Shown: piece by piece, positions 13,685 to 22,211 of the stretch | Layout of the letters: every line of letters begins with the position of its first letter | How positions within the stretch are numbered: the stretch's first letter is position 1 | Origin: a virus | Strand: one strand, 5' to 3' | Virus record (IMG/VR): IMGVR_UViG_3300020347_000038 | Coordinates: 1-22,211 of that record | Length of the DNA: 22,211 nucleotides | Position numbers and translations under genes: made by a program | Notes under the pieces: generated by a model | Told to the model about the DNA's origin: nothing | The model's database searches: none | The model's input: only the letters and a program-made list of their open reading frames with translations

Positions 13685-14122
13685 TTAATTGAAAAATGAG
13701 AAGTAAGGTAACATACCTTTTTTGGATACCATTAAAACTGTAATAAATTCAACAGCTATGAAAGCACCTATGATAATCCACTTGTACTTTTCTAATAGAC
13801 TAATTCTACCACGGAATTCGCCTTTTAGTTCAATTAACTCTTCCTTTATACGTTTTTCAGATTCTTCTATTTTATCAGAAAGTTCTTTTTCTATACTTAT
13901 CGTCTCACTGGCTCTTATCTTTAGCTTAGAGAATATCACATCATCTATCTTTTCCTGGTGTTCAATCTTCTCCTCGTGTACGGCCAACATAGACTTAATA
14001 TGTGTAGAAACGTCTGTTAGTTTGTCAATAGCAGTATCAAGTCTATTTTGAATATTATTAACCTGTTTGACATCTTTGGTTAATTCTGCTAATCGTACTT
14101 GAATTTCTGTATTCTCACTCAT
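13685..14122 (-). CDS. Coiled-coil protein with a C-terminal membrane helix (145 aa)
   Basis: The start is ATG 14122 (a TTG one codon earlier is also open). Residues 1-110 are a long charged heptad-type region: MSENTEIQVRLAELTKDVKQ, then VNNIQNRLDTAIDKLTDVST and IEKELSDKIEESEKRIKEEL. A single hydrophobic helix, YKWIIIGAFIAVEFITVLMV (about 113-132), follows, with a short tail ending PYFSFFN. This layout, coiled coil then K-Y-K-W and one TM helix, is common in marine T4-like phages and is sometimes labelled XhlA-like. A holin-associated or envelope-spanning role is possible but unproven. A late-promoter box at 14129-14136 sits directly upstream, and there is no clear ribosome-binding site. Confidence 0.75.
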   Translation of the reverse strand: MSENTEIQVRLAELTKDVKQVNNIQNRLDTAIDKLTDVSTHIKSMLAVHEEKIEHQEKIDDVIFSKLKIRASETISIEKELSDKIEESEKRIKEELIELKGEFRGRISLLEKYKWIIIGAFIAVEFITVLMVSKKGMLPYFSFFN

Positions 14123-14128
14123 CAACTA

Positions 14129-19231: not shown

Positions 19232-20099
19232 CTGTATTCTCCTTTCGTTCTTTTATTTTCATGTCGTTATGTACGTCATTGCCTACATCAACATAGTCTT
19301 TAATTTGAGGTACTTCTATTTCTTTATCTACACTAAACTTCCATAATTCTTTTTGAGCACCTAAATGAATTAAATCTACAACACCTTTTTCTATTGCTTT
19401 TCTTACTGCAAAGGTCACTGGTTCGTTTTTAGCATAACCAGCTTCTATCTCTACTAACATTGTGTCAGCGTCAAAATATTTAAATACGTCTGATCCTGTT
19501 GACGTTGATACAATAGTCTTTTCTACCGTTGTCGTAATAACAACTTCACCAGTTTGTACATTTACTAATCTTAATATAATAGTAACAATATCTTCCCTAT
19601 ATTGTTTATTTGCTTGTATTCCTAAAACTCTAGCACCTATACCACCAGATTTTATATCACTATCATAACCTACAATACCACCTGTGATATATGCACCTGC
19701 AAATAGTAAAGCAGGTAGTGGTTCTGCGTTCTCACCACTTGCTAATTGTCTAGTTGTTCTAATTAATTTTCTTTCTTGCAATAGACTTGCTAAACTTGAT
19801 CTCTCTACAACTCTAAACCATTTACCATCGCCTGCGTCTTGTAATGCCTTGATTAACAACTGATAAGAGCCTTGTGTGACAGCACTTGACATTGAAGCAA
19901 AGTTACCACCTGGTTTCTTTTGACCAGTCATATCTAAAAAATCATAAACAGCAATTGTAACTGGATCGCCTTCAGGTGCCTTGACACTTGATAAATCTTT
20001 GTATGCAACTGTTTGAGTTTTTACATCAAAACTTGCCTTGTTTGTAGCACAACCTACTAAAATAAAAGAAAGTAATATAATTGATAAAGTTTTAAACAT
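19182..20099 (-). CDS. csgG: Curli secretion channel CsgG
   Basis: CsgG is an outer-membrane lipoprotein that assembles as a nonameric pore and lets curlin subunits out of the periplasm. Visible features: lipobox LVGC with Cys17; YKDLSSVKAPEGDPVTIAVY (about 33-52), matching the YKDLTHLPAP segment of E. coli CsgG; DMTGQKKPGGNFASMSSAVT, covering the constriction-loop region; RVVERSSLASLLQERKLIR; and GYDSDIKSGGIGARVLGIQA, nearly identical in pattern to E. coli GYESNVKSGGVGARYFGIGA. The E. coli constriction Tyr is not obviously kept, so the gate may differ. Length 305 versus 277; the extra is a hydrophilic, Asn/Asp/Lys-rich tail overlapping the curlin gene start. TAATG coupling links it to csgF. 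Confidence 0.94.
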   Translation of the reverse strand: MFKTLSIILLSFILVGCATNKASFDVKTQTVAYKDLSSVKAPEGDPVTIAVYDFLDMTGQKKPGGNFASMSSAVTQGSYQLLIKALQDAGDGKWFRVVERSSLASLLQERKLIRTTRQLASGENAEPLPALLFAGAYITGGIVGYDSDIKSGGIGARVLGIQANKQYREDIVTIILRLVNVQTGEVVITTTVEKTIVSTSTGSDVFKYFDADTMLVEIEAGYAKNEPVTFAVRKAIEKGVVDLIHLGAQKELWKFSVDKEIEVPQIKDYVDVGNDVHNDMKIKERKENTDEKNDNDTGDSSGNND

Positions 20100-20560
20100 T
20101 ATTGATTATCCTGATATGGTAAAGTATAACTTGTTGTTGTGCCATCTGGCTCTTGTACAGTCACGGTTACACCTGCGTTGTCACCTGAAGTGACGGTTGC
20201 CCAAGTTATAATATTTCCTGCTGTATCTGTATATGTTCCTGAATCTTGTTGTAAACCATCTGATCCAAATACATTATCTGTAATTTGTTTTGCAAGAGCA
20301 GTATAGAATCTTGCTTCTAAATTTGCTTGAAATTTAGCAACAGCAGTTGAGTTTAACTCATCTTGTAATGCCTTTGCGTCTGCTTTTTTCTGAGCTTCTA
20401 TTGCGTCTTTTCTAGTCTTCTCTATGTTCTCTATCGTTAAATAGTGTGATGATTTTCCGTTACCAGAAAATGATGGACTGCCAAATTTAAATATCATTTC
20501 TGACGCAGCCACACTTGAACATAAACCAAACGTTGCTAAAATTACTAATAATTTTTTCAT
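20099..20560 (-). CDS. csgF: Curli assembly factor CsgF
   Basis: CsgF plugs into the CsgG pore and couples secretion to nucleation at the cell surface. After a signal peptide (MKKLLVILATFGLCSSVAAS), the mature N-terminus reads EMIFKFGSPSFSGNGKSSHY. This aligns with the E. coli CsgF start (TMTFQFRNPNFGGNP), the part that binds inside CsgG. A charged helical insert (about residues 45-80) is followed by FYTALAKQITDNVFG and a beta-rich C-terminus (NIITWATVTSGDNAGVTVTV, DGTTTSYTLPYQ). Length is 153 versus 138 in E. coli. It is the first gene of the late operon, with a late-promoter box at 20583-20590 and AGAGGGA before the ATG. Confidence 0.9.
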   Translation of the reverse strand: MKKLLVILATFGLCSSVAASEMIFKFGSPSFSGNGKSSHYLTIENIEKTRKDAIEAQKKADAKALQDELNSTAVAKFQANLEARFYTALAKQITDNVFGSDGLQQDSGTYTDTAGNIITWATVTSGDNAGVTVTVQEPDGTTTSYTLPYQDNQ

Positions 20561-20582: not shown

Positions 20583-20590
20583 TATTTATA
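20583..20590 (-). promoter_or_regulatory. T4-type late promoter box for the csg operon
   Basis: TATAAATA on the minus strand within TTATAAATATAGGTG, 22 bases before the csgF ATG. Transcription would start around 20576, leaving a short leader that contains AGAGGGA (around 20570-20565) as ribosome-binding site. Box, leader and start are well placed, making this the best late promoter in the window. Confidence 0.75.
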
Positions 20591-20607: not shown

Positions 20608-20697
20608 TTAAAACTTGTCGCACCATTTATATATGTTCCAACACATATAAACCATTAGCCCAACTAATAATAGAAGATTAATTGTTCCCAAGTCCAT
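20608..20697 (-). CDS. Membrane microprotein (29 aa)
   Basis: The ATG at 20697-20695 overlaps the stop of the upstream 54-residue gene as TAATG. The product begins MDLGTINLLLLVGLMVYMCW and ends NIYKWCDKF: one transmembrane helix (about residues 6-20) and a short aromatic, basic tail with two Cys. Positive charge lies at the C-terminal side, so an N-out, C-in topology is likely. It is the third gene of a trio of small membrane genes all starting MD. The function is unknown. Holin-like, pore or assembly-helper roles are open. Confidence 0.6.
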   Translation of the reverse strand: MDLGTINLLLLVGLMVYMCWNIYKWCDKF

Positions 20698-20861
20698 TAT
20701 TTTCTATCTGTTAACTTATTAATTAGTTCAAAGGCCACTTTTACCTTCTCCTCTAATACTTTTATTCTATAATGTGCTTGTGCTAAAGTAACAATTAGTA
20801 ATATAAAGGCAACAAATATTGGCCATAATCTACTAATCATCAACACTGCGTCTGAATCCAT
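20697..20861 (-). CDS. Membrane-anchored coiled-coil microprotein (54 aa)
   Basis: The ATG at 20861 is chosen because AGGAG lies seven bases upstream. An in-frame ATG at 20891 gives ten extra residues but overlaps the preceding small gene and lacks a site. The product begins MDSDAVLMISRLWPIFVAFI, has one TM helix (about residues 11-28, LWPIFVAFILLIVTLAQA) and then a charged amphipathic helix (RIKVLEEKVKVAFELINKLT). The layout, a short periplasmic end, one helix and a cytoplasmic coiled coil, is typical of small phage membrane proteins that oligomerise. The specific family is not recognised. TAATG couples it to the downstream 29-residue gene. Confidence 0.7.
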   Translation of the reverse strand: MDSDAVLMISRLWPIFVAFILLIVTLAQAHYRIKVLEEKVKVAFELINKLTDRK

Positions 20862-20871
20862 TATCAATCTC

Positions 20872-20946
20872 CTAATTTGGTGGACCTCCAAACAGAGCTA
20901 GTCCTACCATTAGTAAAATCAATATGGCTGTGAATCTGTAATCCAT
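20872..20946 (-). CDS. Membrane microprotein (24 aa)
   Basis: ATG at 20946-20944 has GGAG nine bases upstream and encodes MDYRFTAILILLMVGLALFG followed by GPPN and a TAG. It is nearly all one transmembrane helix with a Gly-Gly-Pro-Pro cap. An earlier in-frame ATG at 20961 gives 29 residues but is poorly spaced from the GAGGG upstream. It lies behind the late box at 20992-20999 and 10 bases before the next small gene. Support is the start context, the clean helix and the operon position. Conservation could not be checked here. The role is unknown. Confidence 0.6.
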   Translation of the reverse strand: MDYRFTAILILLMVGLALFGGPPN

Positions 20947-20991
20947 CCTGGCTATCTCCATGTTTGTATAAATCCCTCATTTGTTTAAAGG

Positions 20992-20999
20992 TATTTATA
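20992..20999 (-). promoter_or_regulatory. T4-type late promoter box before the microprotein trio
   Basis: TATAAATA on the minus strand, directly after a run of seven T and 46 bases before the ATG at 20946. Transcription would start near 20986, giving a leader of about 40 bases that contains GAGGG and GGAG. This also explains part of the gene-free stretch 20,947-21,046. I saw no convincing terminator hairpin there. Confidence 0.65.
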
Positions 21000-21046: not shown

Positions 21047-21265
21047 CTAATACTGTCTATGTATGTGTTTTCTCAATGCTCTGACAAGTTCCTCTATCTT
21101 ATCTATGACAGAAATAAGACCTGGGTCTGTTACGTATTTGCCTTGATTGGATACTTGATCTTTAAGTTTGTCGTAATCTCTTAAAGGTATTGAGACCATT
21201 GATTGTTCGTTCTCATAGGTCTTGTCGTGTTCATGTGTATCTGGATTGTTTATATCATCGCTCAT
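21047..21265 (-). CDS. Hypothetical protein (72 aa)
   Basis: ATG at 21265 has AAAGGTGA ten bases upstream. The N-terminal half is acidic and disordered (MSDDINNPDTHEHDKTYENE). The C-terminal half forms a charged helix: LRDYDKLKDQVSNQGKYVTD, then SVIDKIEELVRALRKHIHRQ. No signal or membrane segment. It stands alone between the exported-protein pair upstream and the late box at 20992-20999. No family recognised; the coiled-coil tail suggests it binds another protein. Confidence 0.65.
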   Translation of the reverse strand: MSDDINNPDTHEHDKTYENEQSMVSIPLRDYDKLKDQVSNQGKYVTDPGLISVIDKIEELVRALRKHIHRQY

Positions 21266-21296: not shown

Positions 21297-21749
21297 TTAT
21301 TCGTAAACTTTTTTTCTTTCATATGCTTGTTCATGTCTGCCTGTAATCTCTAGTATCTCCCACTCGCCATTTTCTAATACTCTTACTTTAGCATTTACTT
21401 TATCACAAGTCATATTATATATGCCTTCTTTATCTTCACTATCTTTGTATTTTCTTTCTGCTTCTCTTTTATTTTTTAAGCAGTCCATTAAGTTCTCACT
21501 TGCAACATGGTCAACTAATACTCTTGTACCGTCTGCTGAAATTTCAAAGATACATACTGCGAATACAACACCATCCTCTGGTGTAGATGAAGACTCTTTG
21601 TGTTCTTCTTTCATATAAGTTTTGTGTGTATGTTTCTTTTCAATAGGACAAACTTGATGGCCATCATCACCACAACCAGTACAATCTGCTTGTGCGTTTA
21701 GACCAAATGTAATTAATACTAGAAATAAAAATGCAATTAAATAATTCAT
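21297..21749 (-). CDS. Exported Cys-rich protein (150 aa), paralogue of the upstream gene
   Basis: The signal peptide is MNYLIAFLFLVLITFGLNAQ with cleavage likely near residue 20-22. The mature N-terminus is Cys/His-rich (DCTGCGDDGHQVCPIEKKHT), and a metal site is possible. The C-terminal domain (about residues 60-140) has VVFAVCIFEISADGTRVLVD, then LMDCLKNKREAERKYK and a later MTCDKVNAKV. The CLK-x-KR-x-A-x-R and C-x-x-V pattern is shared with the upstream 100-residue gene, so the two are tandem paralogues and the Cys pairs may form a disulphide. Exported to the periplasm by inference. No known family named. Confidence 0.7.
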   Translation of the reverse strand: MNYLIAFLFLVLITFGLNAQADCTGCGDDGHQVCPIEKKHTHKTYMKEEHKESSSTPEDGVVFAVCIFEISADGTRVLVDHVASENLMDCLKNKREAERKYKDSEDKEGIYNMTCDKVNAKVRVLENGEWEILEITGRHEQAYERKKVYE

Positions 21750-22051
21750 TAGTCTAAAATTTTAAGTAATCTAATACCGTATTTTGCTTGTTTGTCAACT
21801 TGTAATAATCCTTTTACAGACTTACAAGCGAATATAACTCTTTCGCCACCTACTTCTCTACTTGCTAGTCTTTTAGATTTTAAGCATTGACTTATATTTT
21901 CTTTATATACCCATTCAATTAATTTACCATTAAGTGTTAGAGTTAATGCAACTACACCACTTTTTTCATACTTTTCTCCACCAGTATAAAGCTTGGCTGC
22001 TAAAACTGGTAAACATAATAACGTAAAAAATATTATTAATAATTTTCTCAT
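21749..22051 (-). CDS. Exported small protein (100 aa), paralogue of the downstream gene
   Basis: The signal peptide is MRKLLIIFFTLLCLPVLAAK, cleaved near residue 19. The mature protein holds a beta segment (GVVALTLTLNGKLIEWVYKE), ISQCLKSKRLASREVG and VIFACKSVKGLLQV. The two Cys are about 20 residues apart and match the Cys of the downstream paralogue, so a conserved disulphide is likely. The ATG overlaps the upstream partial gene by 4 bases, and the stop overlaps the next ATG by one. It is probably a small periplasmic protein. No function recognised. Confidence 0.7.
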   Translation of the reverse strand: MRKLLIIFFTLLCLPVLAAKLYTGGEKYEKSGVVALTLTLNGKLIEWVYKENISQCLKSKRLASREVGGERVIFACKSVKGLLQVDKQAKYGIRLLKILD

Positions 22052-22211
22052 TGTACTGTTTTGCCATTTCCGTTTTGATAGATAATATTTCTATTACTAT
22101 CTTTTAATTTTTCTACATCTTCTCGTAAAATTTTTACGTCTTCTTGTAATCTTTTTATATTAACACCATTGTTCATCATATTTTCCATTTGTGATTGAAT
22201 GGTTTCCAATT
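22048..22211 (-). CDS. Partial gene, coiled-coil C-terminus
   Basis: An open frame enters from the right edge and ends at TGA 22050-22048, overlapping the next ATG as ATGA. The 53 visible residues include IKRLQEDVKILREDVEKLKD, a clear heptad coiled coil, and end QNGNGKTVQ. The start lies outside the window, so length and family cannot be given. Confidence 0.7.
   Translation of the reverse strand, partial: LETIQSQMENMMNNGVNIKRLQEDVKILREDVEKLKDSNRNIIYQNGNGKTVQ

Follow-up and report, generated by a model that had tools for sequence, protein, structure and literature searches.

SAR11 phages are among the commonest viruses of the sea, and the way in which they open their hosts is poorly known. 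Short holin-like peptides of the BhlA/UviB type, which combine an N-terminal transmembrane (TM) helix with a charged C-terminal helix, are met mostly in Gram-positive bacteria. In the mycobacteriophages Girr and NormanBulbieJr, LysF1b is encoded by a gene of the lysis cassette whose deletion impairs lysis (PMC13056207). A lysis role has also been shown genetically for the releasin gp25 of phage Mu, a DUF2730 protein which releases a SAR endolysin (PMC9239132). In the description of the OM43 phage Melnitz, CsgG was put forward as a substitute for a pinholin (PMC9004378).

Organization of the locus

The DNA analysed here, called the window, is the whole 22,211-nucleotide stretch formed by positions 1 to 22,211 of the IMG/VR virus record IMGVR_UViG_3300020347_000038. 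Its minus strand carries a phage curli cluster encoding CsgF, CsgG, a curlin-repeat protein, a FecR-like protein and an adenylate cyclase, in an order which agrees with the one published for phages (PMC9599517). The csgG gene is similar to its counterpart in Pelagibacter phage HTVC008M (67.8% DNA identity over 341 query bases), and the window probably belongs to a marine phage with SAR11 bacteria as host. No endolysin or holin gene is visible within these 22 kb. A preliminary description of the sequence had pointed to three short genes in a row, called here A, B and C, situated between the curli genes and the right end of the window:

22048-22209, minus strand: incomplete membrane/coiled-coil gene of the phrog_20984 type (HTVC027P gp15-like), of which only the part for the C-terminus lies inside the window, context on the lysis side
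21297-22051, minus strand: two genes for small secreted-type proteins of 150 and 100 aa, context on the lysis side
20992-20999, minus strand: TATAAATA, exact match, probable T4-type late promoter element of A-B-C
20872-20946, minus strand: gene A, 24 aa (MDYRFTAILILLMVGLALFGGPPN), or 29 aa with the start at 20961; predicted N-in membrane micropeptide
20697-20858, minus strand: gene B, 54 aa, single N-terminal TM helix and helical charged C-terminal tail
20608-20697, minus strand: gene C, 29 aa, TM micropeptide, its start overlapping the stop of B (TAATG)
20583-20590, minus strand: a further TATAAATA, placed 22 nt before csgF and giving the curli operon a late promoter of its own
20099-20560, minus strand: csgF (Pfam CsgF, E=1.5e-11), context gene, followed by csgG

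The layout that had been described was found again in most respects. The three genes directly precede csgF and csgG, the TAATG coupling of B and C is present, and each protein has a single hydrophobic stretch (best 19-residue Kyte-Doolittle means of 2.0, 2.5 and 1.8 for A, B and C). The lengths of 54 and 29 aa stand for B and C, while that of A is 24 or 29 aa depending on the start.

To the right, the 100-aa secreted-type protein matches phrog_24646 (E=3e-7) and the 150-aa one is joined to it by a home-made profile. Relatives of these proteins adjoin an M15 endolysin in HTVC027P, and proteins of this kind are also met beside spanin genes. The fragment cut by the window end matches phrog_20984 over 53 residues (E=0.0013), and full-length relatives of this gp15-like gene lie near B at three of the loci used for comparison (L290, L298 and L159). 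Two further proteins of the window's minus strand may be mentioned. A 72-aa protein (21047-21265) has no significant match in Pfam, PHROGs or NCBIfam and has weak relatives near csgF and A at other loci, and a 146-aa protein encoded behind the adenylate cyclase (13685-14125) has an XhlA-like layout: its long coiled coil is combined with a single hydrophobic segment at the C-terminus.

A, B and C are under purifying selection

Short hydrophobic open frames are frequent in AT-rich DNA and gene C is known in just five copies, so that chance frames had to be considered. Comparison of the window with locus L003 revealed in-frame purifying selection in all three genes (pN/pS, Fisher p=0.0003 for A, 3e-14 for B and 0.0003 for C, the latter from 11.8/16.2 synonymous versus 18.2/70.8 non-synonymous changes), and no selection signal was found in the shifted frames of A and C. 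Across its family, A has a pN/pS of 0.25-0.28, a value which holds in the stand-alone copies alone. Among 61 distinct sequences of the window's type, B reaches a pN/pS of 0.085 (pN 0.068; pS 0.80, synonymous sites being nearly saturated), and the same DNA read in shifted frames gives 0.91 and 5.4. For C, the value is about 0.35, from a sample of five sequences only. Since this selection acts in frame and is absent from shifted frames, A, B and C are protein-coding genes, C on the evidence of its five sequences only. The chance reading is thus already refuted for A and B, and for the row as a whole it is hardly credible.

The loci closest to the window in CsgF (L001, 88%; L002, 85%) keep an intact B and have neither A nor C. 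This is modular gain or loss and not the breaking of frames by which the preliminary description had proposed to judge the three genes. A 38-aa frame overlapping A (20864-20980) was set aside, as was a 64-aa TTG-start version of B, whose relatives keep the 54-aa protein and not the extension. Gene callers which ignore frames of fewer than 30 codons may overlook A.

Gene B, a conserved membrane protein among lysis genes

The search for the short peptides in phage contigs, which had been suggested as a check, was productive for all three genes. Gene B was found at no fewer than 131 distinct loci in marine viral contigs. It has no significant Pfam, PHROG or NCBIfam match (in these libraries, A, B and C gave sub-threshold matches only) and, by sequence comparison, constitutes an unnamed family. 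No match was found among 50,697 phage records, tblastn of cultured phage records was empty, and the B profile did not match four cultured SAR11/OM43 phages in which the positive controls matched. In genome contigs, three matches only were obtained, all of them metagenome-assembled. The segment flanking the helix on its N-terminal side contains on average 0.6 K/R and 1.9 D/E, against 6.4 K/R and 3.9 D/E in the C-terminal part. According to the positive-inside rule, this charge bias, the sole basis of the prediction, predicts an N-out/C-in topology with a helical, charged cytoplasmic tail. An AF2 model of B is a single helix spanning residues 2-52 (pLDDT 84).

The surroundings of B (4 kb) were surveyed with profiles seeded from the same loci, whose representatives were checked against PHROGs and Pfam. 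The lysis-gene set comprised Rz/Rz1 spanins, 3-TM holin, lysozyme, and M15 or GH108 genes on B's strand within 3 kb, the families being confirmed as Rz-like phrog_739, Rz1-like phrog_812, GTA_holin_3TM PF11351, Phage_lysozyme, GH108 and Peptidase M15. A same-strand lysis gene was found at 62 of the 131 B loci, which are fragments, some of them near-copies, and whose counts depend on the home-made profiles, versus none of 80 control loci, all taken round one T4-type baseplate gene and hence representing one late gene from one phage type. No recognised lysis gene lies within 3 kb of B at the other 69 loci.

Two arrangements recur. In the order Rz-Rz1-B, the Rz1-like lipoprotein gene ends on the start base of B (L021, L070) or 3 nt before it (L084, L094). 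In the other (L290, L298 and others), B is followed by the gp15-like gene (phrog_20984), the 3-TM holin, and a lysozyme or M15 gene. The window matches this pattern by the two small secreted-type genes and the cut gp15-like gene to the right of A-B-C. B is also found behind adenylate cyclase, among baseplate genes (L111, L123, L131), between portal and scaffold genes (L158, L161) and close to a tape-measure-like gene (L240), so that its association with lysis genes is strong and not exclusive. The GH24 endolysins of 19 B loci have no hydrophobic N-terminal segment of the SAR or signal type and, from their sequences, look cytoplasmic. The earlier suggestion of lysis parts gains support for B from the neighbourhood counts and from the touching or overlapping Rz-Rz1-B genes, and for A from its place beside M15 endolysins.

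Companion peptides

Gene A has 301 confirmed relatives. In most copies, ATGGAG is followed by six variable bases and AGG, then by the ATG of MDY. The four codons ahead of this second ATG are under weak constraint compared with the body of A (pN/pS 0.53-0.80), and GGAG could act in ribosome binding, if the protein has 24 aa, or provide the second codon, if it has 29. Twenty-one distinct copies stand alone and stop one to three codons past GGP, a uniformity which argues against random truncation. In 43 other copies, the 22 residues of A open a longer protein (about 220 aa at most), examples being HTVC027P gp14 and a Skadi gene labelled 'micro-tubular organizer', mostly in a gp15-like, small secreted or M15 neighbourhood; A-type genes precede genes of these three kinds. 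Judged from these sequences, the A segment exists both as a stand-alone micropeptide and, next to M15 endolysins, as the signal-like opening of longer secreted proteins, that is, a short membrane segment put to two uses.

Relatives of C were found only in L003, L018/L019, L021/L022 and L032, at each of them between B and csgF. The stop of B coincides with, or lies close to, the start of a further tiny membrane peptide at many loci. Three types of such followers, with no recognisable mutual kinship, were distinguished: the C type, a 28-31-aa 'YTLAG' type (MxxxYTLAGxxAV...) and a 48-aa type (L111, L123, L131). The 'YTLAG' peptides, an unnamed family known from 13 distinct DNA sequences (pN/pS 0.47), are encoded behind Rz-Rz1-B, mostly with an ATGA overlap with B. 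Their loci include L061, L083, L086, L095, L102, L139 and L152.

Late promoters and the slot before csgF

Because the number of TATAAATA motifs in the window equals chance (six found, 6.0 expected, no enrichment), the motif alone is no evidence, and its positional conservation was used instead. All four loci with the order A-B-csgF (the window, L003, L035 and L056) have it ahead of A. Within 80 nt upstream of csgF, it is present in 59 of 72 distinct loci, versus an expected background of 0.8%, the first base of the 8-mer lying mostly at -28 to -32; its upstream frequency for ten other gene families is 0-1.4%. This conservation indicates that csgF has a late promoter of its own. Support was likewise obtained for the view that A, B and C are real membrane genes, prone to be missed, behind a plausible late promoter. 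In loci where B follows the cyclase (L147, L050, L122, L160 and others), TATAAATA ends 6-10 nt before the ATG of B, which would leave a T4-type late transcript with almost no leader.

In cultured phages, the slot before csgF holds phrog_18771 membrane-plus-coil proteins (L386 3764-4417 in HTVC008M; L387 3858-4496 in Melnitz), one of which weakly matches a holin PHROG (E=1.1e-4); that of HTVC008M also contains a 41-aa membrane peptide. A small membrane protein before csgF is common, but it is not one family. In the baseplate control set (L388-L467), a CHASE2-type adenylate cyclase lies near the baseplate gene at 51 of 80 loci, and csgF is absent from all of these fragments.

Alternative functions

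The preliminary description had also considered the three proteins as helpers of secretion. They would then be inner-membrane accessories of the phage T8SS which, for instance, gate or energise CsgG as a replacement for CsgE, which is missing, or anchor the adenylate cyclase/FecR part. The confinement of C to the interval between B and csgF agrees with such a role, as do the same-strand cyclase upstream of B at 14 loci (18 nt apart in L147) and the position of B directly before csgF at 17 of 73 csgF loci. The filling of this slot by other small membrane proteins elsewhere points the same way (p77 at 19 of these loci, beside the phrog_18771 proteins of HTVC008M and Melnitz; a cyclase gene lies nearby at 33 loci, and none of these is found at 4). 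However, these other proteins have no kinship with B, csgF has a promoter to itself, and the cyclase is not tied to curli, as its frequent presence in the csgF-free control fragments indicates. B is also frequent beside lysozyme or holin genes and away from csg genes: csgF lies within 3 kb of B at 48 of the 131 B loci, and many B phages have no csg genes in reach, which is no steady co-occurrence. As Csg-family members, A, B and C were rejected; none of them has a Csg match, while the neighbouring CsgF and CsgG do match. The secretion proposal is thus weakened and we regard it as unlikely; a role of A-B-C shared with CsgFG is possible, not favoured.

The very different contexts of B, from cyclase to baseplate, portal-scaffold and tail genes, and the coming and going of A and C among close relatives would also suit late morons, i.e., superinfection-exclusion or host-takeover membrane peptides swapped among marine phages. 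Nevertheless, the extreme conservation of B agrees less with an arms-race factor than with a partner inside the cell, and its recurrence amid spanin, holin and endolysin genes favours such a partner as well, which makes morons improbable. The loci with B in a baseplate setting, in the portal-scaffold interval or near the tape-measure-like gene could also indicate a small virion structural or assembly factor, acting for instance at the membrane during assembly. Against this stand the lysis neighbours on B's strand at nearly half of its loci and the combination of a TM helix and a charged tail with no structural family match, and we consider a virion function highly improbable.

Proposed role and comparison with known lysis proteins

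Collectively, these data lead us to read A-B-C, with slightly better than even confidence, as a lysis-accessory cassette at the border between lysis and curli genes, its function being suggested by context. The three genes probably belong to lysis rather than to curli formation and have been overlooked. They would encode late-expressed small inner-membrane proteins of the phage lysis equipment, at a junction with a putative lysis module to the right (gp15-like and small secreted genes) and the curli module from csgF onwards under its own late promoter. From its gene neighbourhood, we infer a lysis function for B, which by analogy may be an accessory of the inner-membrane breach that sets the timing or efficiency of holin/endolysin action, possibly oligomerising through its tail after the manner of LysF1b and Mu releasin. 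C would be its coupled membrane micropeptide partner, and A a free-standing version of the signal-like N-terminus which may export a lysis-module protein in other phages. More speculatively, marine phages may possess a modular set of micro-membrane lysis proteins, made of a hyper-conserved N-out/C-in B of 50-57 aa and exchangeable peptides of 24-50 aa including A, which together with CsgFG would form an envelope-breach or release machine in phages with curli genes; this extension is a long shot. As a conserved, unnamed membrane protein found repeatedly among the spanin, holin and endolysin genes of diverse marine phages, B is a concrete candidate for a part in lysis.

The curli clusters of pelagimyophages, HTVC008M and Melnitz, the last an OM43 phage related to SAR11 phages, share with the window the order csgF-csgG-curlin-FecR-cyclase, and those of HTVC008M and Melnitz differ from it by other small membrane proteins before csgF; the accessible parts of the accounts of these clusters contain no mention of A, B or C (PMC7029224, PMC9004378, PMC9599517). 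Among lysis proteins, the Rz/Rz1 spanins belong to the same cassette as B, which has a weak match to an Rz-like PHROG (E=0.1), but their topology is opposite to the one predicted for B. An Rz-type i-spanin, which has an N-in TM helix and a long periplasmic coiled coil and pairs with an o-spanin lipoprotein, was rejected on account of the predicted C-in tail of B and because a separate Rz-like gene, itself paired with an Rz1 gene, adjoins B. Likewise, a class III holin of the T4 T type needs a single TM helix, an N-in/C-out topology and a large periplasmic C-terminal domain, in contrast to the 54 aa and predicted N-out/C-in topology of B. BhlA/UviB-type peptides resemble B in layout, B having no Pfam match.

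The likeness to Mu releasin is that of a late gene downstream of endolysin and spanins, encoding a single-TM protein with very few periplasmic residues, whose N-out/C-in topology is in B a predicted one; releasin has 99 aa, and B 54. B was not retained as a DUF2730 member (no Pfam match; hhalign against Mu gp25, probability 5.7%), nor was a SAR endolysin partner found, the GH24 lysozymes mentioned above having no SAR segment. Since the lysozymes beside B look cytoplasmic, the role of Mu releasin in SAR release cannot be carried over to B. To LysF1b, the likeness is one of gene context and predicted layout: a lysis-cassette setting, a single N-terminal TM helix, a predicted N-out/C-in topology, a helical charged cytoplasmic tail and overlapping genes. 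LysF1b differs by its 124 aa, its Gram-positive host and its partner, a 2-TM protein, B's neighbour being a 27-31-aa micropeptide or a gp15-like protein. In its predicted layout, B is thus unlike a spanin or a T4-type holin; it lies outside DUF2730 beside lysozymes without a SAR segment, and agrees with the releasin/LysF1b type in charge bias, hence in predicted topology, and in gene context; it is for these reasons that a lysis accessory at the inner-membrane breach is proposed.
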